IMG/VR virus record: IMGVR_UViG_3300037508_001314
Coordinates: 1 to 46,213 of that record
DNA from: a virus
Length of the DNA: 46,213 nt
Direction: 5' to 3' (one strand)
The translations under genes were made by a program, and so were the position numbers. The notes under the pieces were generated by a model. It did no database searches. It was not told the origin of the DNA and was given only the letters and a program-made list of their open reading frames with translations. Below, one piece after another: positions 1 through 22,288 of this stretch (position 1 is the stretch's first letter; each line of letters opens with the position of its first letter).

Positions 1-127
1 CGCCGCATGGGTCAACGTCTTCTTCTGGAACGAGAACGGGAAGAAGATGAAGTTCACCGACAACTCGGCAGCCGAACGGCCCTGAGCCCCGTAGTGGTAC
101 ATCTTCTGCGCCTCATCCCACGCACGG
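1..127. repeat. Terminal overlap of a circular contig
   Basis: These 127 bases are identical to 46087-46213. The leftward giant gene reads through the join in frame only if one copy is removed, giving a circle of 46,086 bp. An exact 127-base overlap is the size expected from a de Bruijn assembler using k=127, so I read it as an assembly end rather than a packaged direct terminal repeat. Confidence 0.93.
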
Positions 128-4410: not shown

Positions 4411-4434
4411 CCTGACTGACACCCCCCGCAACAA

Positions 4435-4665
4435 CTACTTGTCGTAGTTCTTGAACACCTGCTGGATCAGCAACGGGTTTGCTTCGGTGTCCAATTCGAA
4501 CCGGATCCCGTTGTCGTCTGGTGCCAGGTTCCGGTGATCGAACCCGAGGTACAGGATCTCTTCCGGGATCCCGCCCGGGTACGCCTCGCAGGTCATTTCG
4601 CCCGGCAGATTCAACTCGTCTCCAAGACGCACACACACGTGACACATGATCGGTCTACGAATCAC
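4435..4665 (-). CDS. Small cysteine-containing phage protein of unknown function
   Basis: This 76-residue protein starts at GTG 4665, chosen because a perfect AAGGAGGT lies just upstream. It has a CHVC pair near the N-terminus, a later single cysteine in MTCEAYPGGIPEEIL, then DHR and DNGIRFE. This cysteine/PxGIPxEI/DHR/DNG pattern recurs in small phage proteins encoded beside head or virion genes, but I know no proven function. A small metal-binding fold is plausible. It sits between two giant genes, 16 bases after one and 24 bases before the other, so it is clearly part of the late transcript. Confidence 0.8.
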   Translation of the reverse strand: MIRRPIMCHVCVRLGDELNLPGEMTCEAYPGGIPEEILYLGFDHRNLAPDDNGIRFELDTEANPLLIQQVFKNYDK

Positions 4666-4681
4666 GTGACCTCCTTCTGAA

Positions 4682-7600
4682 TCATCCGGCCTCAAAGACG
4701 GGCCCAGAGCCGATCCGATTGTACTTGCGGTTCTCGGCAAACCTTCCGGTCACCGCTTCGAACACTTCTCGGGCAAACGGCCTTGGCGACGGCGAACCAA
4801 GCACCTCCGAGAACGCTTCGGCGACCATCTCCTCCACGTTCTCGGCCCCATACTGCGACAGGCGCTGAGCGAGACTTCTCTTGCCGCCGGCCCGTCGATA
4901 CATCTCTTTCAGTACAGACTTCTCCCACGCCTGATAGCCGGCCTCGCTGCCCGCCGTTCGGAACGACCGACGCAGCGCCTCGTGGGCAACGTGACCCAAC
5001 TCGTGCAACACCAGGCCAGTCACCGGATCATCTGTCTTGACGTAGAACCCTGAATCGACCATCGCCTGCGCCTCGGCCCGAGACTCGGCGTAGTTGTTCC
5101 AATGGTTTCCCGAGATCGCAATCTCCGACCCGCCCTCACCCCACGCCGCCCACAACCAAGCGTCCGATCCGAGATTCACCTGTTCGGGGGACACGCTCAC
5201 CCCGATCGTACGTAGATCGGCAACACGGAACATCTCGTACAGGGTCGGGTCGCCCATGAACCGGTCGACCGCATCATCGATGTGGGTTGCCATCACCGGG
5301 TCTAGATGCAACAACTTGTTGTTGACCCGATACCCGAGCCCGACCTGCAGCCCGTACTTGTCCAACAGTTCCGGCAACGGTGAAGCGATCCGCTGATGGG
5401 CCGGCATGTCGAAACTGTGGATCGTGGTTACCGTGCCACGCTTTGCTTTCGGCACAACCGTTGTTGCAGCAACCGGTTCGTCCCCGAGCCGCAACTCGAT
5501 CTTCTCCGCCGGCACACCGACACCCAGCAACGTGTCCCGCAACTGCACCGCAGTAGCGGCGTCAACCCACTGGTTGGCACGATCTGACGGGACGCCCGGC
5601 AACTTGTCTTTACCGGCCCGACCAGAAGCGGTCGCCTCAATCACGATCCGGCCGTCACGCTTCACGGCACGAACCAGACCGTCCCAGTTCTCTTGCAACG
5701 GTTGAACCGACAACACCGACGGAGGACCCGAACTGAACACGATCTGCTGACCGTCACGGACCGCTTCCATCATCGACGCCGGACGTTTCTTTCCGGCCCA
5801 CACCTCCGGAGGAACCGACACAATCACGTTCGGATCCTTGAACGTTGCCACACCCGATTCGTCCAACACGAACTGTTGGGCCCGTTCCACACGAGCGAAC
5901 GGATTACTGATTGGTAAATGCTTCGCCCGATCCTCGGGTACCCACGCATGCACCCCGTGCGGAGACACAAACTCAGGGTCCGCAGAGCGAGCCACTAACA
6001 GGTTCACGCCATCCGTGAACGAATGCTCACGGACCGTCTTGAAACCTTCCGGCGCCAACCCACGACCGTACACGGCATCTACCTGATAGCCCTGCTCACG
6101 CAGTTCCTTCACGACATCCATCACGCTCGCCTTGCCGGCCGGCTTCAAAGCCACCTTCCGGATACGGGTCTTGACACCCGTCTTGGACGGATCCACCATC
6201 ATTACAACGCTCGGCCCGGCTGGGCGCTGCTTTGTATCGTAGGCCGGGTTCCAACGAAACCGTTCTGTTTCCGTGAACCCCAGACGGGCGTAATAGTCGG
6301 GCAGATTGAACCCATCGGTGCGGGGAGCCATCCCGTCCAACGGGACATTCGATTCGAAATCCATCACCTGCGACGGAGCCAAACTGCCCGGAACGTAACC
6401 ATGCTCGTTCGGTTCGAACCCACGAACCGCCAGACCCGGCTCGGAACCGTTCACTCGCAACACTCGCACCGGGACGTGCGTCAACCCGGCATCGTTTGCT
6501 GCCGCCAAGCGGTGGTTTCCCTCCGTGAGACGAACCGTTCGTGACTCCGTGTAGTAGTTCAGAATCAACGGTTCCTTGAAACCGTCGTCCTGAATCGAAT
6601 CGGCCAGCGACGGAGTCTCCCCGCCCGGCGACACGGTCGGGTCATACCGCAAATTGTTGCCCGGCACACCCTCCAAAGCCGAGACGGGCATCATCTCCAC
6701 CGTATTCGACATCGTGTTGTTGCCGTACTTGGGACCCACATAGGGGACCGTGTTCGCAATCGACATGGTGGCCTGGTCGTAGGCGTCCAATTTCACGGCA
6801 CCCTCAGACATGGCGTACTTCACCATCTGCTCACCGAAACCTCGGGGAGCCTCAACGCCACGAAACACCTGCTGCAGGTCACCGTCCGGGGCAATAGCAA
6901 ACCCGGACGTACCCGTCTCGTCCACAAACAGGCGATGCCTCTTCAGATCGACACGAGGGTTGTCGGGGATCGGAGACGTACCGAACTCGTACAACGTGCC
7001 AGCGTCACGAGCGGCCTGCTCCCAGGCGTTCCGTGCAGCAACCCATTCGTCAACCGACACCTCATGCAACCCGCCAGGCGGATCCATCCGGACCGCACGT
7101 GCCGGCACCGTCCTCGCTCCCGGTACACCGTTGCCCGCCACCGTTTCAAAGTTCTTTGACCCGGCAGGCACCTGTTGACCGTCGGCCAACTCGACAACCA
7201 CCGTTTCCTGCGGGCTGAACCCCCAATGACCGTTCGGGAACGCAGCCAGCGGCCACTGCTCGGTTTCCACCCCCGGCACCTCGTCCCGCACTTGTGCGGC
7301 CAACGACTCAACGTCAGCGACCTGGCGGGGCGCCGACAATGCCCACTGATACGTCCCGTTGCCACGATCCAACGCTGGCGACAAATGGCGAACCTTTGCA
7401 GCGTTCTCTAACGAGGCGGGCCACACAAACCCGAGCGACCCGTCCGGCATGGCCTGCAGCCCCGACTTGGCGGCCTCCCCAAACACGAACGGCACCCGAC
7501 CATCGATCGCATTCAACGCTGCTTGCGGCCCGTCCGGGATCTCCCCCATCAACGCCTTGTAGATCGGATTCTCACCCTGGCCCGGAAGAACGATCCGGAA

Positions 7601-9622
7601 CGGGTTCCCGGCACTCCAGCGGCGCAAACCGTTCTGGGCGACCTGGGCGTCGTTCTTCAGGATCCGCCACACCTCCCAGACGACGCCTTGCACATCCGAT
7701 CCCGTCAACCCGAGATGCTGATAGTCGTCCACCAACTGGAACACGGTGTCCTGGATCAGGTCATACACGCTGTCCCCAAGGTCCTTGCCTTCAAGCACCT
7801 TGAAGTCCGACGAGGTCGCCAACCCGAAGAACGCATCGTGCTGGTGACGGTCAACCGTCACCACCGACGTGTCGCCCATCAAGTTCAGATAGAACGATTT
7901 CTGCTTGCGCCCCGACGTTGACCGGAACACGTCATCGGCGGACTCGTTGACCAACCGAAGAATCTTTGACAGATCCACCTTCGACAACTGGACGCCGGCG
8001 GGTCGGGACGCCGGCGTCGTCACACCGCCTTCCTCATCGACGCCCGGCCGATACTCGGGATACTGATCTTCGAACTTCGGGTAGCCCTTCGGAACTTTGC
8101 CGCCGTTGCTTTCGGCGGCCCGCAACTTGGCCGCCAGATAGGTGTCCTGCGCCGCCTTCTTGGCGTCTTCCCACTGCTTGATGGCGTTAGCGTTTGTCAA
8201 CTCTTCGTGGATCTGATCGAACACGTCGGCGGCGTTGACTTTCTTGCCGTCAACAACGACCATCAAGTTGGGACGTAGCGGTTTGGCATCGCCCTTAGGG
8301 GTAGCGAACTTGGCGAACTCGGGGCTCCTCAACCAGTCCTGGAAACCGGCGTCCTGAACGCCGACCCTGTTCGCCTCGGTCAGGGCCCGGACCGCCAAAG
8401 CAATGTTCCCTTCCCACTGCTCGGCCTCCGAAGAGAACGACACAGCGGCAGTCAACTTGCCCTTGTCGATCCACGGCATCTTCTCGGTCAGGCGGGCCAA
8501 CGCCTCATCGATCTGCTTGCCTGCCTTCGGATACCAGCCGGTACCGATGTCCAACGGTGCCGGCAACACACCCGGAAGGCCCTGGCTGCGAAGACGCTGA
8601 TCTTCCAGCCCGAGATCCAACAGGTACCGGAAACTCTCCAGGCCGTGGGAAGCGGCAACACGCACGTTGATCTGCTGCAACCGGGCCGACCGGACATCGG
8701 CACTGGTTAGTGCCGAACGACGATCCCACGAACGAGGCAACGTCACCCCCAACACAACACCGTCGGGAGTGAACTGCACCTCCTCGATCCGGGACACCAG
8801 ATCGAACGACAGGTCCGGTTCGGTCACGTCACGAGTCACGTCACCGAACTGGCGGACATAGTCCAACAGTTGCGCCTTCTTCTCGGCCGACATCTTCAAC
8901 GGGTCCGACATGAACTCGGACCACAACCGGTGGAAGTTCTTGGACCGTGACTGCACGATCAGGCCCGAGTTCACAGCGGTATCGATCTTGGCGAAATCCA
9001 ACTGGGCGGCAGGCGCACGGCCCTCCGGAGCGATGTCGGTCAACATGTCCGCATACGTGTCAAGAACAGCCGCAGCAGACGCAACCCGCTCGACCGACGC
9101 ACCAGGCATCAGCCAGTGGGCTGCTGCCTGCGTGTCCGGAGCCGTGATGATGTCGGCAGCACGACCCTTCAAACCGGGATGCTGGCGGCGCAACAACTGG
9201 CCCGCCGGCGAGAACGCATCAACACGTTCCGCCAACCCCAGATTCCGACCCCAATCAGACACCCGCATCGCAGGAGCGGCACCCACACCGCCCGCCATCT
9301 GACGTTCCCATGACCGGGCCGCAGCCAACTGGCGGGCACCCATCACGGCCCCGCCCACACCCAACGCCGTCATCCCACCCATGAACAACTTCTGCTGCCA
9401 CGAAGCCTCAGAGCCGAACATGTCATCCAACTGGCCGACAGCACCCACCGTCGAGTTCGACGCCAGGTCACCCAGCGACGACATCAAGTCACCGAACCCC
9501 CAGCCGGCGCCACGCTGCGACGTGTGGGGCGTCACAAAGTCAAACGCCGACTCCGCAAAGTTTCCGACCGACTTGGCCGCACCACCCAACGTGTCGCCAA
9601 GCGAATCCAACCAATCGGTCAC
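4682..9622 (-). CDS. Polyvalent virion protein with ParB-like, GNAT-like and zincin motifs
   Basis: The protein has about 1,646 residues. I chose GTG 9622 because it overlaps the previous stop as GTGA and follows an AGGGG site 8 bases upstream; an in-frame GTG at 9667 is the alternative. Features in order are: an N-terminal glycine-rich hydrophobic region (about 75-100); a KSFYLNL...VTVDRHQHDAFF segment (about 570-600) like one found in other phage polyvalent proteins; half of a GNAT-like fold (about 895-950, GFAIAPDGD...GFGEQMVKYAM); a ParB/sulfiredoxin-like domain (about 1000-1060, with EGNHRLAAA at 1034); the second GNAT half with YYARLGF (about 1108); and a zinc metallopeptidase motif HELGH at 1540-1544. 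The family logic is a virion-carried multi-enzyme protein injected with the DNA. The targets are unknown. Confidence 0.85.
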   Translation of the reverse strand: MTDWLDSLGDTLGGAAKSVGNFAESAFDFVTPHTSQRGAGWGFGDLMSSLGDLASNSTVGAVGQLDDMFGSEASWQQKLFMGGMTALGVGGAVMGARQLAAARSWERQMAGGVGAAPAMRVSDWGRNLGLAERVDAFSPAGQLLRRQHPGLKGRAADIITAPDTQAAAHWLMPGASVERVASAAAVLDTYADMLTDIAPEGRAPAAQLDFAKIDTAVNSGLIVQSRSKNFHRLWSEFMSDPLKMSAEKKAQLLDYVRQFGDVTRDVTEPDLSFDLVSRIEEVQFTPDGVVLGVTLPRSWDRRSALTSADVRSARLQQINVRVAASHGLESFRYLLDLGLEDQRLRSQGLPGVLPAPLDIGTGWYPKAGKQIDEALARLTEKMPWIDKGKLTAAVSFSSEAEQWEGNIALAVRALTEANRVGVQDAGFQDWLRSPEFAKFATPKGDAKPLRPNLMVVVDGKKVNAADVFDQIHEELTNANAIKQWEDAKKAAQDTYLAAKLRAAESNGGKVPKGYPKFEDQYPEYRPGVDEEGGVTTPASRPAGVQLSKVDLSKILRLVNESADDVFRSTSGRKQKSFYLNLMGDTSVVTVDRHQHDAFFGLATSSDFKVLEGKDLGDSVYDLIQDTVFQLVDDYQHLGLTGSDVQGVVWEVWRILKNDAQVAQNGLRRWSAGNPFRIVLPGQGENPIYKALMGEIPDGPQAALNAIDGRVPFVFGEAAKSGLQAMPDGSLGFVWPASLENAAKVRHLSPALDRGNGTYQWALSAPRQVADVESLAAQVRDEVPGVETEQWPLAAFPNGHWGFSPQETVVVELADGQQVPAGSKNFETVAGNGVPGARTVPARAVRMDPPGGLHEVSVDEWVAARNAWEQAARDAGTLYEFGTSPIPDNPRVDLKRHRLFVDETGTSGFAIAPDGDLQQVFRGVEAPRGFGEQMVKYAMSEGAVKLDAYDQATMSIANTVPYVGPKYGNNTMSNTVEMMPVSALEGVPGNNLRYDPTVSPGGETPSLADSIQDDGFKEPLILNYYTESRTVRLTEGNHRLAAANDAGLTHVPVRVLRVNGSEPGLAVRGFEPNEHGYVPGSLAPSQVMDFESNVPLDGMAPRTDGFNLPDYYARLGFTETERFRWNPAYDTKQRPAGPSVVMMVDPSKTGVKTRIRKVALKPAGKASVMDVVKELREQGYQVDAVYGRGLAPEGFKTVREHSFTDGVNLLVARSADPEFVSPHGVHAWVPEDRAKHLPISNPFARVERAQQFVLDESGVATFKDPNVIVSVPPEVWAGKKRPASMMEAVRDGQQIVFSSGPPSVLSVQPLQENWDGLVRAVKRDGRIVIEATASGRAGKDKLPGVPSDRANQWVDAATAVQLRDTLLGVGVPAEKIELRLGDEPVAATTVVPKAKRGTVTTIHSFDMPAHQRIASPLPELLDKYGLQVGLGYRVNNKLLHLDPVMATHIDDAVDRFMGDPTLYEMFRVADLRTIGVSVSPEQVNLGSDAWLWAAWGEGGSEIAISGNHWNNYAESRAEAQAMVDSGFYVKTDDPVTGLVLHELGHVAHEALRRSFRTAGSEAGYQAWEKSVLKEMYRRAGGKRSLAQRLSQYGAENVEEMVAEAFSEVLGSPSPRPFAREVFEAVTGRFAENRKYNRIGSGPVFEAG

Positions 9623-10056
9623 CGACGAGACCCCTGAATCAGGTTCTGCAGATTGATTCTTGCCCACTCACGGGTCGCTTCAGACACCGAAGGATCCGCA
9701 ACCAACGCATCCAGAATCGCCATGTTTCGCTGCCGGGCGGTACCCGCCGTCAACACAGGATTCGGTGGCGGACCCGACACCAACGGGGTCGACACCGGCA
9801 CATCCGGCCTGGCGGTCGGAGCCAACAGCGGGCCCGGAACACCCGGAGCCGGCGAAGTTGACACACCACCACCCGAAGGAGGGGTCGGCATCGGAGCCAT
9901 CCCGCCAGGACCCGACGGGACCGGGCTGTCGGCCTGAGGAAACGACTGAGCCAACCGGTCAAGGTTTGCCTGATCACCGTACGAACCGCTGGCCGGCTTG
10001 TTCACCCCACCACCAGGCATCGGCTGCTTCGTCACATCGAACTGGTCAAGTGCCAT
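9619..10056 (-). CDS. Proline/glycine-rich virion-region protein
   Basis: This 145-residue protein lies between portal and the polyvalent gene. It starts at ATG 10056 after a GGGGGG site. Residues about 40-100 are a low-complexity Pro/Gly/Ala/Ser linker. The last 40 residues form a short helical segment rich in Arg, Ala and Leu. I recognise no family. The portal C-terminus just upstream is also Pro/Gly-rich, so both may provide flexible links in the virion. Its stop overlaps the next start by 4 bases (GTGA), implying translational coupling. Confidence 0.75.
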   Translation of the reverse strand: MALDQFDVTKQPMPGGGVNKPASGSYGDQANLDRLAQSFPQADSPVPSGPGGMAPMPTPPSGGGVSTSPAPGVPGPLLAPTARPDVPVSTPLVSGPPPNPVLTAGTARQRNMAILDALVADPSVSEATREWARINLQNLIQGSRR

Positions 10057-14153: not shown

Positions 14154-14184
14154 ACTAGTCAGCCTCGACAGAACCAGAAGAGAC

Positions 14185-14208
14185 GCCCAGCCCCTTCAAG
14201 GGCTGGGC
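14185..14208. other. Nine-bp hairpin 2
   Basis: GCCCAGCCC (14185-14193) pairs with GGGCTGGGC (14200-14208) across a CTTCAA loop. The same arms recur 56 bases later (14241-14263), so this is a duplicated element rather than chance. Confidence 0.8.
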
Positions 14209-14240
14209 CACCAGAACTAGTCCTTGTACTTGATCTAGTA

Positions 14241-14263
14241 GCCCAGCCCTTCAGGGGCTGGGC
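14241..14263. other. Nine-bp hairpin 3, near copy of hairpin 2
   Basis: GCCCAGCCC (14241-14249) pairs with GGGCTGGGC (14255-14263) across TTCAG. The arms are identical to hairpin 2 and only the loop differs, so selection or duplication has kept the stem. It directly precedes the CTAG iteron array. Confidence 0.8.
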
Positions 14264-14265
14264 AT

Positions 14266-14916: not shown

Positions 14917-14932
14917 AGGGTGCGGGTTGATG

Positions 14933-15286: not shown

Positions 15287-15523
15287 ATGGCGACGATTGT
15301 TGATTCGATCGAGGTGCGTGTCGTGGTGGCCGAGGTGGCTGCTCTGGTGCACCAGTTGATTGGGCCGGTGCATCCGAAGTCGACGCAGACGGCTCGTGGC
15401 AAGACCGAGGCCCAGCACCACATCGTGGACGTGTTTGTCCGGGCGTTGTTGGAGACGTGGGCGACGAAGGACGGCCCGCAGTTGGCTGATGCGGTGCTGG
15501 TGGGTGCGCCCGCCGAGGGGTGA
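15287..15523 (+). CDS. Small early protein, unknown (cassette gene 1)
   Basis: A 78-residue protein, mostly helical, with SIEVRVVVAEVAALVHQL at the N-terminus and a histidine pair mid-protein (EAQHHIVDVFVRALLE). The ATG at 15287 follows AAGGAGAGATTGAG, a leader shared almost letter for letter with cassette genes 2, 3 and 6. No family is recognised. It is the first gene of the ribozyme-separated array and the only one whose upstream ribozyme appears truncated. Genes in this position in temperate phages often act on the host early in infection, but that is only context. Confidence 0.8.
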   Translation: MATIVDSIEVRVVVAEVAALVHQLIGPVHPKSTQTARGKTEAQHHIVDVFVRALLETWATKDGPQLADAVLVGAPAEG

Positions 15524-15526
15524 CAT

Positions 15527-15585
15527 GGTCGAAACCGGCCGGTGGCCGGTCCTGTGCGGGTGGTTCCCGCACGGCTGATGAGACA
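15527..15585 (+). ncRNA. Type II hammerhead ribozyme 1
   Basis: Stem II 3' strand GGTC (15527-15530), core GAAA (15531-15534), stem III CCGGCC/GGCCGG with a GGT loop, then GUC with cleavage after C15551. Stem I is nine pairs (15552-15560 with 15566-15574, one U-G pair) and a TGGTT loop. Core CTGATGA is at 15575-15581 and stem II 5' strand GACA at 15582-15585. All invariant hammerhead residues are present. Cleavage would separate gene 1 from gene 2. Stem II is weak here (three pairs plus a G-A mismatch). Confidence 0.88.
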
Positions 15586-15608
15586 AACCGACTGAAGGAG
15601 AGATTGAG

Positions 15609-15893
15609 ATGAGTGGAGCGTTGGAGTTGCTGGATGCCCAGTTGCGACAGGCCGTGTCGAACCGGGAATGGCACCGGGAGGCGCTGGAGGCCGCCCGGGC
15701 CCAGTTGGCCCGGTGCATCACGAGGGTCGCCGAGGCTGAGACTGCTGTGGCGGACTTGCAGCGGGAGGTGTTCCGGGCGTTGGGGCCGGTGCTGCAGGCG
15801 TCGTTGGGTTCGGTCGCCTCGGTCGAGGTGACGGTGCTGGACGACGCCGGTGAGGCGCTGTGGCGCCACTGGGGTGTGCTGGTCGAGGACTAG
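15609..15893 (+). CDS. Small early coiled-coil protein (cassette gene 2)
   Basis: A 94-residue protein. Residues 5-60 are a long heptad-rich helix (LELLDAQLRQAV...AETAVADLQREV) likely to form a coiled coil, followed by a short beta-rich end (SVEVTVLDDAGEALWRHWG). ATG 15609 follows AAGGAGAGATTGAG, 24 bases after ribozyme 1. The TAG stop (15891-15893) is built into stem II of ribozyme 2. No family is recognised. Confidence 0.8.
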   Translation: MSGALELLDAQLRQAVSNREWHREALEAARAQLARCITRVAEAETAVADLQREVFRALGPVLQASLGSVASVEVTVLDDAGEALWRHWGVLVED

Positions 15894-15955
15894 TCGAAAC
15901 CGGCCCCTGCGGGGGCCGGTCCATGCCGGGTGGTGCCCGGTGTGCTGATGAGACA
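15892..15955 (+). ncRNA. Type II hammerhead ribozyme 2
   Basis: GAAA is at 15896-15899. Stem III is CCGGCCCC/GGGGCCGG closed by a TGCG loop (UNCG type). The GUC site ends at C15921. Stem I pairs CATGCCGGG with CCCGGTGTG (two G-U pairs) around TGGTG. CTGATGA is at 15945-15951, then GACA. Relative to ribozyme 1, both stems I and III change on both strands yet stay paired. The gene 2 stop codon TAG overlaps the stem II strand TAGTC. Confidence 0.9.
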
Positions 15956-15978
15956 AACCGACACAAGGAGAGATTGAG

Positions 15979-16584
15979 ATGATTGAGACGACAGAGTTGA
16001 CGGGTTCGTTGCTGGGTGCCGAGGTGTGGCAGCGGTTGGCGGACGAGTACCTGTTGGGGGCCCGGTCGAATGTGCCGGGCGTCGAGGCGCTGGGCGACTA
16101 CGTCGACAGCCAGGTGGAACGCTGGGTGGTCGGTGGTGACGCCCCGCATGTCGAGTACTGGTGTTCGGGCACGTTCTGGGATCCCGTCCCCGGGCAGCCC
16201 TACGACGGGCTGGATGACCTGTCCGCCGACGTGTTGGCCGGTTCGGCCCTGGTGTCGACCGACTACTGCGACCATCCGGTGTGGTCGCAGGACACAAACG
16301 TCCGGTTCCGGATCTGGCACGACACGGCGCACGTCCGGCATGGCCTCGGGTTCGGGGTGGATGACGAGGTGCGACTGTGGGTGCATCAGGCCCGGGAGAT
16401 TGACCGGCTGTTGCCGGTGGGTGCGGGGGCCGGTCGGGTGATCGATGCGTTGTTCTGCGAGTCGATCTACCAGTTGGCAGCGTTCATCGCTGGGGGCGGC
16501 CGGTATCCGGACGAGCAGTACGTGGTGGCTGCGGGCCCGGTGGGTAAGCAGGTGCAGCACTTGCTGTTCGCTCTCGTGCGCTGA
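15979..16584 (+). CDS. Early protein with conserved His/Trp motif, unknown (cassette gene 3)
   Basis: A 201-residue protein. The most distinctive part is residues about 110-140: RFRIWHDTAHVRHGLGFGVDD...WVHQ, with closely spaced histidines that could bind metal, and upstream HPVW and YWCSGTFWDP stretches. The pattern resembles a family of uncharacterised phage proteins, but I cannot name an activity. ATG 15979 follows AAGGAGAGATTGAG. It is the largest gene of the ribozyme array and lies between ribozymes 2 and 3. Confidence 0.8.
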   Translation: MIETTELTGSLLGAEVWQRLADEYLLGARSNVPGVEALGDYVDSQVERWVVGGDAPHVEYWCSGTFWDPVPGQPYDGLDDLSADVLAGSALVSTDYCDHPVWSQDTNVRFRIWHDTAHVRHGLGFGVDDEVRLWVHQAREIDRLLPVGAGAGRVIDALFCESIYQLAAFIAGGGRYPDEQYVVAAGPVGKQVQHLLFALVR

Positions 16585-16586
16585 TG

Positions 16587-16602
16587 CTGGACTGGTGCAG
16601 GA
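16587..16602 (+). promoter_or_regulatory. Early 16-bp element, copy 2
   Basis: CTGGACTGGTGCAGGA, starting 3 bases after the gene 3 stop and running into the outer part of ribozyme 3 stem II. Same orientation as copy 1. Confidence 0.6.
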
Positions 16603-16665
16603 CGTGTCGAAACCGGCCGGTGGCCGGTCCGTCGGGGTGACCTCCCGGCGCTGATGAGACAGGTC
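16601..16665 (+). ncRNA. Type II hammerhead ribozyme 3
   Basis: Stem II pairs TGTC (16605-16608) with GACA (16658-16661) and is extended past a G-G mismatch by GAC/GTC. GAAA is at 16609-16612. Stem III is CCGGCC/GGCCGG with a GGT loop. Cleavage is after C16629 of GUC. Stem I is CGTCGGGG with TCCCGGCG around TGACC. CTGATGA is at 16651-16657. It separates genes 3 and 4. Confidence 0.9.
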
Positions 16666-16682
16666 GAGAAGGAGAAACAGAG

Positions 16683-16907
16683 ATGGATACCAACAAGGTT
16701 CAGGCCCGGGTGCGACAGGTTGCCGAGGCGTTGTTCGACAACGCTCACCGGTTCACGTGCAGTGAGGCCGAGGCGGTGTGTGACCTGTTTGCCGAGGTGG
16801 GCCTCGGCGGGCTGGTCGACGGGTTCCGGACCAGGCATGCCGAGGAAGACGAGGTCGGCGACCTTCACAAGGTGGTCGACGGTGTCGGGGTGTTCTGCGT
16901 GTTCTAG
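16683..16907 (+). CDS. Small early protein, unknown (cassette gene 4)
   Basis: A 74-residue helical protein. The segment ALFDNAHRFTCSEAEAVCDLFAEVG followed by an acidic HAEEDEVGDLH stretch is typical of small actinobacterial and phage proteins of unknown role. ATG 16683 follows AAGGAGAAACAGAG, 17 bases after ribozyme 3. The TAG stop (16905-16907) overlaps ribozyme 4 stem II, as in gene 2. Confidence 0.78.
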   Translation: MDTNKVQARVRQVAEALFDNAHRFTCSEAEAVCDLFAEVGLGGLVDGFRTRHAEEDEVGDLHKVVDGVGVFCVF

Positions 16908-16962
16908 TCGAAACGGCCTGCGGGCCGTCCGTCGGGGATGGTTTCCCGGCGCTGATGAGACA
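16906..16962 (+). ncRNA. Type II hammerhead ribozyme 4
   Basis: GAAA is at 16910-16913. Stem III CGGCC/GGCCG is capped by TGCG (UNCG loop). GUC ends at C16929. Stem I pairs CGTCGGGG with TCCCGGCG, extended by an A-T pair around TGGT. CTGATGA is at 16952-16958, then GACA. Stem III is one pair shorter than in the other copies. The preceding gene's TAG is part of the TAGTC stem II strand. Confidence 0.9.
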
Positions 16963-16985
16963 GACCAACTGAAGGAGGAATTGAG

Positions 16986-17276
16986 ATGAAGATCCGGTTC
17001 GTGGGTGTGGTCGGTGACGGCTACCTGTTGTGTCCGGACTGTTTCGACGCCGGGCAGGCCGCTGAGACGGTGCAGGTGTTGGAAGCGGAATGTGACCATT
17101 GGTGTGGGGCTGCGAACTGTCACCACGGTTCGCCGTCGAGGGCATTGGCGTTCGGTCGGACATCGTCCCGGGAAGGGGGCGATGTGGTGGCCCGTTTGCG
17201 TGACGAGTTCGGGCCGCTGTGGGAATGGGAAGCGGACGAGGACGACTACTGCGATCAGTGCCACACGGGGCTATAG
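16986..17276 (+). CDS. Small early zinc-finger-like protein (cassette gene 5)
   Basis: A 96-residue protein with a CPDC pair near residues 17-20, a CDHWC...CHH cluster mid-protein and CDQCH at the C-terminus, consistent with one or two zinc sites. An acidic WEWEADEDDY stretch precedes the last pair. ATG 16986 follows AAGGAGGAATTGAG. Zinc-ribbon proteins this small often bind nucleic acid or a host protein; the actual role is unknown. It lies between ribozymes 4 and 5. Confidence 0.8.
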   Translation: MKIRFVGVVGDGYLLCPDCFDAGQAAETVQVLEAECDHWCGAANCHHGSPSRALAFGRTSSREGGDVVARLRDEFGPLWEWEADEDDYCDQCHTGL

Positions 17277-17290
17277 ACTGATCCTGGACG

Positions 17291-17350
17291 TGTCGAAACC
17301 GGCCTCGTGGCCGGTCCTGTGCGGGTGGTTCCCGCACGGCTGATGAGACA
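17291..17350 (+). ncRNA. Type II hammerhead ribozyme 5
   Basis: TGTC (17291-17294) pairs with GACA (17347-17350). GAAA is at 17295-17298. Stem III is CCGGCC/GGCCGG with a TCGT loop. Cleavage is after C17316. Stem I is the same nine pairs and TGGTT loop as ribozyme 1. CTGATGA is at 17340-17346. It separates genes 5 and 6. Confidence 0.9.
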
Positions 17351-17373
17351 AACCAACACAAGGAGAGATTGAC

Positions 17374-17853
17374 ATGGAGATCAAGACGAACAGGTTGTCG
17401 CACGACGTGCTGTGGCAGGCCGAGAAGTGGTTGCGGCGGCACATTGCGCTGTGCGAGGTCGACAGGACCGGCTGGGATGACTACCAGTTGAGCGCCCACG
17501 ACGCCCGGCTCGATGACCACGGGCTGGAGGCCTGTGACGTGCTGCTGACGGTCCTGTCGGGCCTCGGCATTGTCGGCGACATCGGCTGTGGGGTCGAAGC
17601 CCCGGTGTTTGTGACGGTGTACGACGTGGTCGACGAGTACGGCGGACCCGAGGAGGGCGGCTGGTGGTTCAGGGCCGGACGTGTGACCGCTGTGCACACG
17701 TTCGACACGGCCGAGTTGGCTGACTGGTTCACGGGCCGTCTGCGGACCCAGTCGGGTGCGAAAGAGTTGCCTGCGACCGGTGTCGGGCTTCGCTACACGG
17801 TCGGTGACGAGCCGGGCCGGAACTTTCCGGAGTTCGCCCCGTCGTACGAGTGA
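17374..17853 (+). CDS. Early protein, unknown (cassette gene 6)
   Basis: A 159-residue acidic protein with an N-terminal helical region (HDVLWQAEKWLRRHIALCEV), a central glycine-containing stretch (GLGIVGDIGCGV), and a beta-rich centre (VFVTVYDVVDEYGG, WWFRAGRVTAVHTF). No catalytic motif or family is recognised. ATG 17374 follows AAGGAGAGATTGAC, 24 bases after ribozyme 5. It is followed by a 16-bp element and ribozyme 6. Confidence 0.8.
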   Translation: MEIKTNRLSHDVLWQAEKWLRRHIALCEVDRTGWDDYQLSAHDARLDDHGLEACDVLLTVLSGLGIVGDIGCGVEAPVFVTVYDVVDEYGGPEEGGWWFRAGRVTAVHTFDTAELADWFTGRLRTQSGAKELPATGVGLRYTVGDEPGRNFPEFAPSYE

Positions 17854-17860
17854 CCGGTTA

Positions 17861-17876
17861 CTGGACGGGTGCAGGA
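17861..17876 (+). promoter_or_regulatory. Early 16-bp element, copy 3
   Basis: CTGGACGGGTGCAGGA, 8 bases after the gene 6 stop and abutting the outer stem II of ribozyme 6. It differs from copy 2 at a single base. Confidence 0.6.
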
Positions 17877-17946
17877 CGTGTCGAAACGCCCCCCTGGTGG
17901 GGCGTCCGGTGGAGGTGGCTCCTCCACTGCTGATGAGACAAGCCGT
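17876..17946 (+). ncRNA. Type II hammerhead ribozyme 6
   Basis: TGTC/GACA (17879-17882, 17937-17940) is extended past an AGC bulge by ACG/CGT. GAAA is at 17883-17886. Stem III is CGCCCC/GGGGCG. Cleavage is after C17906 of GUC. Stem I pairs CGGTGGAGG with CCTCCACTG around TGGCT. CTGATGA is at 17930-17936. Nearly every helix position differs from ribozyme 1 yet pairing is kept, which is strong covariation evidence. Confidence 0.92.
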
Positions 17947-17961
17947 GAATGAAGGAGAAGC

Positions 17962-18228
17962 ATGGAAACCGTGAACGTGATCCTGCTCGGCCATCCGGCC
18001 GATGCGGGAGACAACCTGGTGCGTGTCGAGGCGTCCGTTCCCGACGTGGAACGGTTCGTGGCCGATGAGGCCGCCAGCGGCCGCTGGGCGCATGCCGTGG
18101 TCGACGAGGTGATCTCTGCGGGGCCGTACGGTCGCCGGTTGGCCGGTCTGATCCGGACCGGGCCCGACGGCGTGTGGTGGCACTACTACCGCACCGGTCC
18201 GGCCGTGGTGGTCGGGGAACTGTCGTGA
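17962..18228 (+). CDS. Small early protein, unknown (cassette gene 7)
   Basis: An 88-residue alpha/beta protein starting NVILLGHPADAGDNLVRV and ending RTGPDGVWWHYYRTGPAVVVGE. ATG 17962 follows AAGGAGAAGC. Its stop overlaps the next start as GTGA, so genes 7 and 8 share one ribozyme-bounded message. No family is recognised. Confidence 0.78.
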   Translation: METVNVILLGHPADAGDNLVRVEASVPDVERFVADEAASGRWAHAVVDEVISAGPYGRRLAGLIRTGPDGVWWHYYRTGPAVVVGELS

Positions 18229-18317
18229 CGGGCCCCTGGCCGGGTGTTGCCGGGCTGGTGTTCGTGGCGGCCGTGTTTGTGTGGGTGCTGGCTTTCCCGG
18301 GCCGGTACGGGGACTGA
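18225..18317 (+). CDS. Tiny single-span membrane protein (cassette gene 8)
   Basis: A 30-residue product starting at GTG 18225, overlapping the previous stop by 4 bases. VAGLVFVAAVFVWVLAF is an obvious transmembrane helix, followed by a short charged end. Phages often encode such peptides early, for example to modulate host membrane functions, but nothing specific is shown. Ribozyme 7 starts 5 bases after its stop. Confidence 0.6.
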   Translation: MTGPWPGVAGLVFVAAVFVWVLAFPGRYGD

Positions 18318-18321
18318 CCGA

Positions 18322-18393
18322 AGGCGAAACCAGACCAGGATGCTAGACGGATCCTGGTTTGGTCCACCGGTGGATGCCGGTGCTGACGAGCCT
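18322..18393 (+). ncRNA. Type II hammerhead ribozyme 7 (divergent, CUGACGA core)
   Basis: Stem II is AGGC/GCCT (18322-18325, 18390-18393), so both strands changed relative to ribozymes 1-6. GAAA is at 18326-18329. Stem III is 12 pairs with one G-U (18330-18341 with 18351-18362), loop GCTAGACGG. GUC is cleaved after C18364. Stem I CACCGG/CCGGTG closes TGGATG. CTGACGA is at 18383-18389; position 7 is the one variable core base. The stem III top carries a 16-bp element. Confidence 0.9.
18343..18358 (+). promoter_or_regulatory. Early 16-bp element, copy 4
   Basis: CTAGACGGATCCTGGT, the most divergent copy (three mismatches), embedded in the loop and 3' arm of ribozyme 7 stem III. Confidence 0.45.
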
Positions 18394-18417
18394 GTCAGGA
18401 CAACAAAGGAGGGATCC

Positions 18418-18600
18418 GTGAACAACGGATACACGCAGGAGAGGCCGGTGGTGGCTGGGCCATTGCCGGAACAGGTTCGGGACGAGATCGCTTCGATCGT
18501 CCGTTGCGGCGGTGAGGTGGTTTCAGTCGCCGAAACCGAGCATGGCACGGTGATCACGTACCGGCTCTGCCAGTCGCATGTGCTGGTGGTGTCGGAATGA
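18418..18600 (+). CDS. Small early protein, unknown (cassette gene 9)
   Basis: A 60-residue protein starting at GTG 18418 after AAAGGAGGGATCC. It begins NNGYTQERPVVAGPLPEQV and ends with a beta-rich stretch (ETEHGTVITYRLCQSHVLVVSE). It overlaps the next gene as ATGA. No family is recognised. Confidence 0.7.
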   Translation: MNNGYTQERPVVAGPLPEQVRDEIASIVRCGGEVVSVAETEHGTVITYRLCQSHVLVVSE

Positions 18601-18773
18601 AGATCACGGTGAACGTGGTGAACGGTGAACCGTTGTCGTTCTCGGCGGTGAAGCCGCCGTGGCAGTGGCGGGACTTCCTGGTGATCGATACGGTCGGGAA
18701 CGGTGTACTGACGTACGTGCCGTTGTCGATGGTCGAGTCGTTCACCGTTCCGGCGTTTGAGGCCGCCCGATGA
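18597..18773 (+). CDS. Small early protein, unknown (cassette gene 10)
   Basis: A 58-residue, probably beta-rich protein (MKITVNVVNGEPLSFSAVKPPW...VLTYVPLSMVESFTV), overlapping both neighbours by 4 bases (ATGA at each end). The tight overlaps imply a coupled three-gene unit after ribozyme 7. No family is recognised. Confidence 0.7.
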   Translation: MKITVNVVNGEPLSFSAVKPPWQWRDFLVIDTVGNGVLTYVPLSMVESFTVPAFEAAR

Positions 18774-18940
18774 GTTCGGTGCGGTCGAAGGCCGATCGGG
18801 AAGCGGTCTGGCTGATGGGACAGTTGAAGGTCGCCCAGGGCCGTGCCGAGGGGCTGGAGTTGCGCCTGAAGGCCGCTGAGGCCCGGGTCCGGTATCTGGA
18901 GGCCGAACTGGCCCATCTGTGCCCGGCCCCGGAGTTCTGA
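18770..18940 (+). CDS. Small coiled-coil protein (cassette gene 11)
   Basis: A 56-residue, highly helical protein. Residues 8-50 (WLMGQLKVAQGRAEGLELRL...RVRYLEAELAHL) have leucine heptads typical of a short coiled coil. It is the last gene of the array, 32 bases before the terminator. Function unknown. Confidence 0.7.
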   Translation: MSSVRSKADREAVWLMGQLKVAQGRAEGLELRLKAAEARVRYLEAELAHLCPAPEF

Positions 18941-18972: not shown

Positions 18973-19008
18973 GCAATGAGGCCACCCCTCCTGGGGTGGC
19001 CTCATTGC
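18973..19008. terminator. Strong bidirectional hairpin terminator
   Basis: A perfect 16-bp stem (18973-18988 with 18993-19008) with a TCCT loop, followed by GTTTCC on the plus strand. It sits between convergent transcripts: the rightward cassette array ending at 18940 and the leftward lysin operon ending at 19054. Confidence 0.9.
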
Positions 19009-19053
19009 GTTTCCGGGGACGATTCTGCGGGGACGGTCTGGACGGTTCTTGAA

Positions 19054-20285: not shown

Positions 20286-20762
20286 ATGAGCAACATTTCC
20301 GATGCAGAGCGGTGGGCTGGGAGCCCGTTGGTGACCGAAGCGGTCCGCAGGGCAGGTGAGGGCGCCGACACGGTCGACATCCTCACGGTGCTTGTCGACC
20401 TGATGAACGACCTGGAGGACCGCTGCCCTGGCGTGCCGTTCGGGGTGATCTTCGACAGCGTTACACTCAACTCTGACGAGCAGAACCAGCACGGCCGTGA
20501 ACAGACCGGCATGATGTTGCTCGACCAGTACGGCTGGCCGTTGGAAGACATCGACGACCTGTTCGGTGGCCGGGACCGGTGGACCAATCAGGCGATCCGG
20601 ACCGAACTGATGCGCCGCCGCCGTGGGCTGCGGGGCGAACATCCGGCACTGGCCCTGTATCGGGCCGGGATGTCACAGGCGGGGATCTGTCGGGAACTTG
20701 GCCTGTCCGATAGCCGGGTCAGTTTCGTGATCCGTCGAGCGATGTCGAAGGGGCTGCTGTGA
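20286..20762 (+). CDS. HTH DNA-binding protein, candidate early regulator
   Basis: A 158-residue protein. The C-terminal 45 residues contain a clear helix-turn-helix (YRAGMSQAGICRELGLSDSRVSFVIRRAMSKG). The N-terminal two-thirds is acidic and helical (VDILTVLVDLMNDLEDRCPGV). ATG 20286 has GAGG just upstream. Its place at a divergent promoter with a 16-bp palindromic element makes it a reasonable candidate for the phage repressor or an early activator, but no repressor family is recognised. Its stop overlaps the nuclease start as GTGA. Confidence 0.85.
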   Translation: MSNISDAERWAGSPLVTEAVRRAGEGADTVDILTVLVDLMNDLEDRCPGVPFGVIFDSVTLNSDEQNQHGREQTGMMLLDQYGWPLEDIDDLFGGRDRWTNQAIRTELMRRRRGLRGEHPALALYRAGMSQAGICRELGLSDSRVSFVIRRAMSKGLL

Positions 20763-21631
20763 AGATCACCCAGTCGATTCTCGGGCAGGCCGACAAGTGT
20801 CTGCTGTCGGCCCAGTACACGCTCGATCGGCCCGTGTGGGTTCGTCGCAAGGCGTCGGCCGCTGCGACGCTCGGCACCGGGTTCCATGCCGGGCTGGAAC
20901 ACTACTACGCCGAACGGATGCGTTACCCGGATCTGCAGGCCGATGACCCGCAGATGGTGGTCGACATGATCGAAACGGCGCACCTGGCGTTCGATGCGGG
21001 AACCCGGATCGACGCCTACAACGGCCAACCGGTTGAGCACTTCATGTGGGACGACAAGATCCCTGACCTTGCGACAGCCCATTCGTTGCTGGAAACGATG
21101 CTGACCGCCTACTGCGAGCAGGGCTGGTGGTGGCCGGTCGAGTTCCAAGTGGTCGGCGTCGAGTTCGACCGTGTGTTGACGATCGTGCATGGCGATGTCG
21201 AGTTCGAAGCGAAACTGGGTGCCGACCTCGTGTTGCAGGACGAGAACGGCTGGATCGTGCTGGTGGACCACAAGACGGCCGGCCGTGCGTGGGACGAATC
21301 GAAGCATCATCCTCGCCGCAACAATCAGGCTTCGATGTACACGGCGTTGGCCGAGACGGTGTGGCCTGACGCTGCCGGGCACCGGTTCGTGTTCGACATC
21401 GTGACGTTGCCCGGGAAACGGAAAGAGACAGCGTTCGAACGTCGGATCTCGGACCCGACCCCAGCCCATCGGGCCGCTGTGGTGAAGAAGGCTGCCGATC
21501 TGGCCCGGCTCTATCAGGTGGTGCACGTGGAGGCGGGCCAGGATCTGCCAGCGAACCCGGCCAGCACCCTGTGTAACCCGAAGTGGTGCGATTTCTGGGA
21601 CGGCTGCCCGCACGGCGCCGTCTTGGACTGA
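20759..21631 (+). CDS. Cas4/RecB-like PD-(D/E)XK exonuclease with Fe-S cysteines
   Basis: This 290-residue protein has the layout of the PDDEXK_1 (Cas4/AddB-like) family: C14 near the N-terminus, GTGFHAGLEHYY with the family histidine, LGADLVLQDENGWIVLVDHKT giving the catalytic Asp, Asp-x-Lys, and C272, C277 and C283 at the C-terminus. One N-terminal plus three C-terminal cysteines is the classic 4Fe-4S arrangement. It probably trims dsDNA ends for recombination or replication. GTG 20759 overlaps the previous stop. It precedes ribozyme 8 and the ssDNA-binding gene. No CRISPR array is present. Confidence 0.9.
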   Translation: MKITQSILGQADKCLLSAQYTLDRPVWVRRKASAAATLGTGFHAGLEHYYAERMRYPDLQADDPQMVVDMIETAHLAFDAGTRIDAYNGQPVEHFMWDDKIPDLATAHSLLETMLTAYCEQGWWWPVEFQVVGVEFDRVLTIVHGDVEFEAKLGADLVLQDENGWIVLVDHKTAGRAWDESKHHPRRNNQASMYTALAETVWPDAAGHRFVFDIVTLPGKRKETAFERRISDPTPAHRAAVVKKAADLARLYQVVHVEAGQDLPANPASTLCNPKWCDFWDGCPHGAVLD

Positions 21632-21634
21632 CTA

Positions 21635-21703
21635 GAACGAAACCCTGGTTACTGGACTTGTCCAGGACCGGGTCGGTCGCTGAGTGGCGGCCCTGACGAG
21701 TTC
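21635..21703 (+). ncRNA. Type II hammerhead ribozyme 8 (divergent, CUGACGA core)
   Basis: Stem II is GAAC/GTTC (21635-21638, 21700-21703), a third covarying version. GAAA is at 21639-21642. Stem III is long (CCC/GGG, bulged T, GGT/ACC, internal loop, CTGGAC/GTCCAG with a TT loop). GUC ends at C21674. Stem I GGTCGC/GCGGCC (one U-G) closes TGAGTG. CTGACGA is at 21693-21699. It separates the nuclease and ssDNA-binding genes, 3 kb from the main array. Confidence 0.9.
21652..21667 (+). promoter_or_regulatory. Early 16-bp element, copy 6
   Basis: CTGGACTTGTCCAGGA, containing a perfect CTGGAC-TT-GTCCAG palindrome. The palindrome is also the apex of ribozyme 8 stem III, so one sequence serves a possible operator in DNA and a helix in RNA. 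Confidence 0.6.
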
Positions 21704-21727
21704 GTCAGCACCTTGTGGAGGTATCCA

Positions 21728-22288
21728 ATGTCGTATGCAGATTCCGAGGGTTTGAAGGCCCTGCAGATCGCCGTGAACGTGGGCGTGAACGTGACGGCCG
21801 AGATGTCGGCTGCTGTGGCCGCCACCGGTGGCGACCCGTACATCTACTTCGTTGAACACCTGGACGGTGTCGTGAACCTGATCGTCGCCACCCACGCCGA
21901 GCAGAAGATTCAGTCCGCTTTCGGTGCTGTTTCTGTCGATCCGGCGACGGACCCGGCGTTGGTCGGTCGTGGCCTGGCGTTCGTGCCGCCCGTCCAGGCC
22001 GCTGCACCGGTGGTGCAGGCCCCTGTGGTGCAGGCCCCGGCCCCGATCCCGATGGCGACCGTGTCGGCCGTCGTGAACTCGGAGACGGAGCGCCGCTGGA
22101 CGTTGTTCTTCCAGAACCCGGACGCCTGGTGGAACAACATCAACAACAAGAAGAACCCGAAGCAGCCCGACTTCCGTCACAAGACCGAGAAGGGTGTCGA
22201 CGGCTACCCGATCGGCCTGTGGATCCAGGACAAGGGCAACCCGGCCTGGGTTGCCGAGGGGCTCCGCCAGATCGGTCTGGTCGCCTGA
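21728..22288 (+). CDS. Probable ssDNA-binding protein with OSB-like PDF motif
   Basis: A 186-residue protein starting at ATG 21728 (GGAGG upstream). An N-terminal alpha/beta region is followed by a VQAAAPVVQAPVVQAPAP linker (about 95-118) and a C-terminal WTLFFQNPDAWWNNINNKKNPKQPDFRHK motif. This matches the PDF motif of organellar single-stranded DNA-binding (OSB) proteins of plants: W..FF.NP..WW.N...K.NPK.PDF.HK. It is a plausible replication SSB, supported by neighbours (exonuclease upstream, helicase downstream). The OB-fold region is not recognisable by eye. Confidence 0.78.
   Translation: MSYADSEGLKALQIAVNVGVNVTAEMSAAVAATGGDPYIYFVEHLDGVVNLIVATHAEQKIQSAFGAVSVDPATDPALVGRGLAFVPPVQAAAPVVQAPVVQAPAPIPMATVSAVVNSETERRWTLFFQNPDAWWNNINNKKNPKQPDFRHKTEKGVDGYPIGLWIQDKGNPAWVAEGLRQIGLVA

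Follow-up and report, generated by a model that had tools for sequence, protein, structure and literature searches.

What would a self-cleaving ribozyme do if it were placed at one gene junction after another in a phage genome? The question is raised by the complete 46,213-base IMG/VR virus record IMGVR_UViG_3300037508_001314 (the whole record is referred to below as the window), in which eight type II hammerhead ribozymes are found, seven of them between small genes of one operon and the eighth in a second operon. Judged from the sequence, it is probable (roughly 70% by our own estimate) that in this region type II hammerheads punctuate an operon, whose transcript they would process in infected cells.

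Eight type II hammerheads in one phage genome

In a covariance-model search with the Rfam family RF02276 (Hammerhead_II), copies 1–6 exceeded the 37-bit gathering score, all on the + strand, while copy 7 (25.7 bits) and copy 8 (16.8 bits, seen when the record was scanned alone) stayed below it. The low scores of copies 7 and 8 are explained by their long stem III, which is 12 base pairs (bp) in copy 7 and contains an internal hairpin in copy 8, together with a short loop I. An independent motif descriptor, reading stem II, GAAA, hairpin III, UH, hairpin I, CUGANGA and stem II in this order, returned the same eight copies and no others on either strand of the window. As 0.015 descriptor matches per window are expected by chance (200 dinucleotide shuffles) and eight are present, a chance origin was rejected.

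Each copy consists of a stem II strand, GAAA, hairpin III, GUC, hairpin I, CUGAUGA or CUGACGA, and the second stem II strand. The invariant core (CUGANGA ... GAAA ... UH) is intact in all eight, and in all eight stems I and III are closed by loops and stem II is open. An earlier note on this DNA, made from the sequence alone, had proposed the eight ribozymes, their type II class and their intact cores. All of this holds: the open stem II, the core and the order of parts fully support the class, the eight cleavage sites predicted by the descriptor are identical to those proposed, and the stems had been read correctly but for one or two extra pairs. The copies are as follows.

15527..15592, +, hammerhead 1: cleavage after C15551; 39.8 bits; pseudoknot UGGUU/AACCG; between the genes at 15287-15523 and 15609-15893
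15892..15962, +, hammerhead 2: cleavage after C15921; 44.0 bits; stem II shares one base with the stop codon of gene 2
16605..16668, +, hammerhead 3: cleavage after C16629; 46.8 bits; pseudoknot UGACCU/AGGUCG
16906..16969, +, hammerhead 4: cleavage after C16929; 61.4 bits; pseudoknot UGGUUU/AGACCA
17291..17357, +, hammerhead 5: cleavage after C17316; 45.1 bits; hairpin I and 3' flank near-identical to copy 1
17879..17948, +, hammerhead 6: cleavage after C17906; 41.8 bits; pseudoknot GGCU/AGCC
18322..18400, +, hammerhead 7: cleavage after C18364; stem II GGC/GCC; 12-bp stem III; core CUGACGA; found by the descriptor
21635..21714, +, hammerhead 8, in the second operon: cleavage after C21674; stem II GAAC/GUUC; hairpin within stem III; found by the descriptor

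A feature that the earlier note had missed is the pairing of loop I with the 3' tail in copies 1–6, which is the known type II pseudoknot; it is weak or absent in copies 7 and 8. The pairings differ between copies (GGUU/AACC, GACCU/AGGUC, UGGUUU/AGACCA, GGCU/AGCC), with both partners changing together. True loop and tail partners pair better than swapped partners within the window (p = 0.024), and across 218 unique hammerheads the pairing was 10.82 for real partners against 8.39 ± 0.13 for swapped ones. All three helices covary as well, 98.9% of positions being paired in 38 copies compared with 67.7% after shuffling, a figure to be read with the reservation that pairing was partly a criterion by which copies were selected, which the pseudoknot was not. 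Other known ribozymes or riboswitches were searched for in the window with Rfam and none was convincing.

Operon layout and spacing

The distance from the predicted cleavage site to the next start codon is 53–57 nucleotides (nt) in eight of eight copies, and each predicted leader begins with hairpin I. Between the 3' end of the ribozyme and the start codon there are 21–24 nt, again in all eight. Upstream, the distance from the stop codon to stem II varies from -1 to 25 nt. As the spacing to the next start is fixed and that to the preceding stop is not, the ribozyme is tied to the downstream gene. Every gapped junction of the first operon holds one hammerhead, and the second operon holds one. 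Genes 3' of a ribozyme have a strong Shine-Dalgarno sequence; the ribozyme-free junctions at 18225, 18597, 18770 and 20759 are 4-nt gene overlaps without a strong Shine-Dalgarno sequence. None of the array genes has an assigned function. The genes concerned, with lengths in amino acids (aa), are listed below.

15287..15523, +, gene 1, first of the operon: 78 aa; AAGGAGAGATTGAG leader as in genes 2 and 3; no hammerhead 5' of it
15609..15893, +, gene 2: 94 aa, no assigned function
15979..16584, +, gene 3: 201 aa, no assigned function; phrog_7806
16683..16907, +, gene 4: 74 aa, no assigned function; phrog_1178
16986..17276, +, gene 5: 96 aa, no assigned function
17374..17853, +, gene 6: 159 aa, no assigned function; phrog_24642
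17962..18317, +, genes 7 and 8: 88 aa, then an open reading frame of 30 aa with a 4-nt overlap; uncut junction predicted
18418..18940, +, genes 9-11: 60, 58 and 56 aa; 4-nt overlaps; uncut junctions predicted
18975..19012, +, GC-rich hairpin followed by a T-containing tail: possible operon end, weak
20286..22288, +, second operon: helix-turn-helix protein (20286), exonuclease (20759, 4-nt overlap), hammerhead 8, gene without known function (21728)

The hairpin at the possible operon end is called weak because it is one of six terminator-like sites and shuffled sequences yield 5.5. A promoter scan gave no signal exceeding chance. Terminase and portal genes lie on the - strand, and exonuclease, DnaB-like helicase, primase and integrase genes on the + strand. 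That the operon is expressed early, as the earlier note had it, we infer from gene position alone.

Hammerhead arrays in other phages

The array is not confined to this phage. A pattern scan of IMG/VR listed at least 120 matches, and when 80 of these records were scanned whole, 6 of the 80, among which is a near-identical copy of the present phage, had at least six Rfam matches. With a covariance model trained on array copies, 13, 11, 10, 9, 8, 7 and 6 hammerheads were counted in seven other IMG/VR records; some of the counted records had supplied training sequences, which neither the record G081, with 9 copies, nor the Streptomyces isolates described below had done. Among 258 unique type II hammerheads of phage contigs, 75% are directly followed by a Shine-Dalgarno sequence and a start codon (median 24 nt), compared with 14% for random positions. 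In bacterial genomes the same pattern mostly occurs in one or two copies, with a maximum of three per stretch, among the matches listed. In many genomes of Gastranaerophilales, type II hammerheads occur as a pair with a spacing of about 360 bp.

One further array, with 11 hammerheads, lies at positions 1200-6800 of a record (G035) from a phage with a Zierdtviridae-like helicase stretch. A degenerate copy with the core CCGATGA seems to lie 5' of the first gene, and loop I there is without the usual pseudoknot. No hammerheads were found in the Zierdtviridae isolates matched through the helicase (ChewyVIII, HubbaBubba, MacGully and NC1), and the array DNA of two further IMG/VR phages matched nothing in the phage collection.

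When the phage database was searched with the DNA of the array region, the sole match was a short stretch in the Streptomyces phages Celia, Urza, Itza and VieEnRose. Cultured Streptomyces phages hold arrays of their own: by the covariance model, 11 hammerheads are found in Celia/Urza (Urza 11, VieEnRose 11), 9 in Daudau and 9 in R4, and Rfam confirms hammerheads in Urza, Daudau and R4. The operon whose junctions hold them runs leftward and is located close to the right end of the genome. In R4, six of the nine overlap annotated starts of coding sequences, and the annotated starts are therefore probably too far upstream.

A tRNA-like minihelix in related Streptomyces phages

Hammerheads are missing from Lika, Goby, Nanodon and Yosif, which are likewise members of the subfamily Arquatrovirinae; their junction regions gave no Rfam match up to E = 2. 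Instead, the junctions of each of the four contain 7–9 copies of a minihelix, and the same element is found in phiHau3 (7 copies), Ozzie (10) and Sujidade (7), again with no hammerheads. In this element an acceptor-like stem of 5 bp is joined by a linker of 11 nt, in which a GG is invariant, to a T-like stem of 6 bp with a TTCGANN loop, and ACT follows. From shuffles, 0.07–0.09 copies per region are expected by chance. All 13 proposed pairs are kept in 100% of copies and 7 of the 13 show compensatory change. Two of the compensated pairs, one within the linker and one between linker and T-loop, are of tertiary type, as expected if the element were to mimic the tRNA elbow. Plain energy folding scores the minihelix no better than shuffles; the case for the element is built on repetition and covariation.

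By ARAGORN the minihelix is not a tRNA (0 genes). It has traits of an RNase P substrate, namely stacked acceptor and T stems, a T-loop, G+1 and A73; an RCCA-type 3' end is absent, the element ending in ACT in nearly all copies and in ACC in a few copies of phiHau3. It is likely to be a substrate of tRNA-processing enzymes. A 5' stem-loop of at least 6 bp follows the minihelix in 16 of 26 cases, compared with 12% in shuffles, and the start codon comes 36–50 nt on, so that stem-loop and leader are much like the hairpin I and leader expected after hammerhead cleavage. A single minihelix of this type also lies between genes at about 3970-4016 of IMGVR_UViG_3300032116_000692, an AT-richer contig that also has two hammerheads; by eye it keeps both covarying pairs of tertiary type.

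Probable exchange of the two devices at orthologous junctions

None of the 12 Arquatrovirinae records examined was found to hold both hammerheads and minihelices. In this subfamily, the gaps that contain an element are mostly 40–200 bp, and almost every tight or overlapping junction is free of one; in the phages with hammerheads, gaps with an element measure mostly 40–150 bp and gaps without one mostly -4 to 20 bp. When junctions upstream of orthologous genes are compared between hammerhead and minihelix phages, the presence of an element agrees in 93 of 104 comparisons. Since the phages are related and the 104 comparisons are not independent, the figure at the level of gene families is the safer one (5/1/2/12, p = 0.007). 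A tree of nine shared proteins, which recombination could blur, places the hammerhead phage Urza with the minihelix phage Yosif, and the hammerhead phages R4 and Daudau with the minihelix phages Lika and Nanodon (97% support), and these pairings imply at least two switches between the devices.

That two unrelated RNA devices occupy the same junctions argues that junction cutting is what is selected, and the simplest property shared by the two would be that the transcript is cut there. It is tempting to go further and propose that phage operons are systematically punctuated by interchangeable RNA-cutting devices, each gapped junction having a hammerhead or a tRNA-mimic minihelix (probably cut by RNase P and/or RNase Z), then a 5' stem-loop, a Shine-Dalgarno sequence and a start codon, and that related phages swapped the devices at the same junctions. 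We hold this broader proposal with less confidence than the punctuation of the present operon, and favour it by a little.

Proposed processing of the transcript and alternative explanations

The steps can be envisaged as follows. Once the polymerase leaves a junction, hairpin III would form and then hairpin I; stem II would close, loop I would pair with the 3' tail as a pseudoknot, and the RNA would cut itself after GUC. A stable hairpin III and a 2',3'-cyclic phosphate would then make up the 3' end of the upstream message, and the downstream message would start with a 5'-OH on hairpin I and a leader of 53–57 nt. One transcript would in this manner be turned into a set of short messages with a hairpin at either end, for which stability and translation could be set gene by gene, and genes with 4-nt overlaps would stay on one message. 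Within Arquatrovirinae the same job would be done by hammerheads in R4, Daudau and the Celia group, or by minihelices in the Lika group, Yosif and phiHau3, the latter being expected substrates of host RNase P and/or RNase Z. The earlier note had proposed self-cleavage into mainly monocistronic messages. The cut itself is predicted from sequence, and the idea is supported, if indirectly, by the constant leader, by the lack of a ribozyme before gene 1 or at overlaps, and by the tRNA-like elements that take the place of hammerheads at orthologous junctions of Streptomyces phages.

Other explanations have to be considered. The ribozymes may cut but serve gene-by-gene tuning or conditional control, a terminating ribosome covering stem II and delaying folding so that cleavage and initiation respond to translation. 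The geometry would allow this, with stop codons from -1 to 25 nt 5' of stem II and a pseudoknot tail that abuts the Shine-Dalgarno sequence, and regulated cleavage was considered by Perreault et al. (PMC3088659). However, the conserved spacing is that to the downstream start and not that to the upstream stop, stem lengths and loops vary freely, and replacement by a tRNA-like element without such geometry argues for plain cutting, which makes this explanation unlikely. More doubtful still is that the repeats are mainly recombination or cassette boundaries for the shuffling of small genes, with ribozyme activity as a by-product or a selfish trait. A near-identical stretch is common to copies 1 and 5, several genes have leaders in common, the gene content between repeats differs among phages, and cluster K phages have start-linked repeats without a known RNA function (PMC3203893). 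Conservation here is nevertheless limited to the catalytic core and the pairing, with stems changing by compensation, which is the mark of RNA function; DNA cassettes need neither catalytic bases nor a swap for another RNA fold at orthologous junctions. Least credible of all are inactive relics or chance look-alikes, a reading that might appeal to copies 7 and 8 falling under the Rfam cut-off and to some competing alternative folds, and that is disfavoured by the excess of copies over the shuffled expectation, by the intact core of every one, by their position at junctions throughout and by the recurrence of arrays in other phages.

Several observations nevertheless weigh against punctuation by cutting. 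An energy fold of longer context, computed without the pseudoknot, prefers other pairings for part of the motif in copies 1, 2, 4 and 8, and when Perreault et al. assayed 18 consensus hammerheads, 4 failed to cleave (PMC3088659). The minihelix has an acceptor stem of 5 bp and a 3' end that reads ACU in place of RCCA. Promoter-like sequence was seen by eye 5' of some minihelix junctions, which therefore may not lie inside one transcript. Finally, neither hammerheads nor minihelices were found in the closest syntenic relative, IMGVR_UViG_3300038829_000190 (57% exonuclease identity), so that the device is dispensable in related phages. The one other relative found for this phage, a near-identical contig (99.99%), is uninformative because its array is unchanged.

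Relation to known systems

Hammerheads of types I, II and III that flank single genes or short blocks in prophages were described by Perreault et al. (2011; PMC3088659), who proposed that long phage transcripts are cut into mRNAs the length of an operon or a gene. In that study cleavage was seen in vitro for three tandem arrangements and in Escherichia coli for one, and the examples described go up to three ribozymes (PMC3088659). The likeness to the present case is that several hammerheads flank individual genes in a phage, the window having both integrase and terminase genes. The difference is that here there are eight, all of type II, one per gapped junction and with a fixed leader of 53–57 nt, and that 6–13 are found in other phages including cultured Streptomyces phages. 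Where the earlier note had regarded a serial array as a new device for operon processing, the processing role and small clusters were thus already published; what is new is that arrays of 6–13 recur in several phages, cultured Streptomyces phages among them, with a length and regularity beyond the published accounts found. No report of gene-by-gene arrays of 8–13, of R4-type phage arrays or of the minihelix was found in the open-access literature, most subscription journals being outside that scope, and nothing relevant on hammerheads in Streptomyces phages was found there either.

The core, the order of parts, the open stem II and the pseudoknot of loop I with the 3' tail are common to the copies described here and RF02276, from which copies 7 and 8 differ by the long stem III, the short loop I and their scores under the cut-off. 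The pseudoknot is present in most type II hammerheads (PMC3088659), and in a crystal-structure study a rate of 16 per min was measured for a hammerhead with a pseudoknot (PMC11300833). A single variant copy, in contrast to the array here, lies 13 nt before the start of an early gene in the haloviruses HF1 and HF2, where a mapped 5' end at most 3 nt from the cleavage site suggests cutting in vivo (PMC3088659). The SAS and ESAS of cluster K mycobacteriophages resemble the array as repeats 5' of many small-gene starts in one part of the genome, but have no described ribozyme core; their authors judged RNA pairing to be poorly supported and took the repeats for possible DNA-binding sites (PMC3203893). 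That the array consists of repeats of this type was rejected, as that study itself reports pairing to be unsupported.

In mitochondria, tRNAs between genes mark the cutting sites in polycistronic RNA. The minihelices of the Lika group, Yosif and phiHau3 are similar but are not full tRNAs, and hammerheads need no protein.

The role of bacterial and phage hammerheads has been an open question since 2011, and the reason for their gene associations was still called unknown in 2023 (PMC10085705). A regular array with fixed spacing in R4, a classic cultured phage, makes hammerhead function testable by ordinary infection. R4 and phiHau3 have the same listed host, Streptomyces coelicolor, the one with hammerheads and the other with the tRNA-like element. 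If true, the proposal would add a phage-wide route from one transcript to many messages that needs no protein nuclease, and an uncatalogued RNA motif, the minihelix.

Further observations

An operator-like repeat, GCTGGACNGGTSCWGGA, has 12 matches in the window compared with 2.25 expected, among them those at 14932, 16586, 17860, 18342, 20254 (-) and 21651. These lie 5' of the operons, right before hammerheads 3 and 6, and within stem III of hammerheads 7 and 8; the repeat is perhaps a repressor or stoperator site. In the closest syntenic relative, at least two junctions within positions 1-6200 carry another repeated hairpin element (GCCCTGCCAGA ... GGCCGGGAGCGC ... CACGAAAGG), which has no Rfam match. 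Two back-to-back GC-rich hairpins at 14181-14265 of the window probably lie in the divergent region between gene blocks; an Rfam match to mir-7143 at this place was dismissed as a chance hit on the hairpin pair. On the - strand, positions 4682-9667 encode a protein of 1,661 aa with a ParB-like stretch at about residues 985-1073, an unusual position among head genes.

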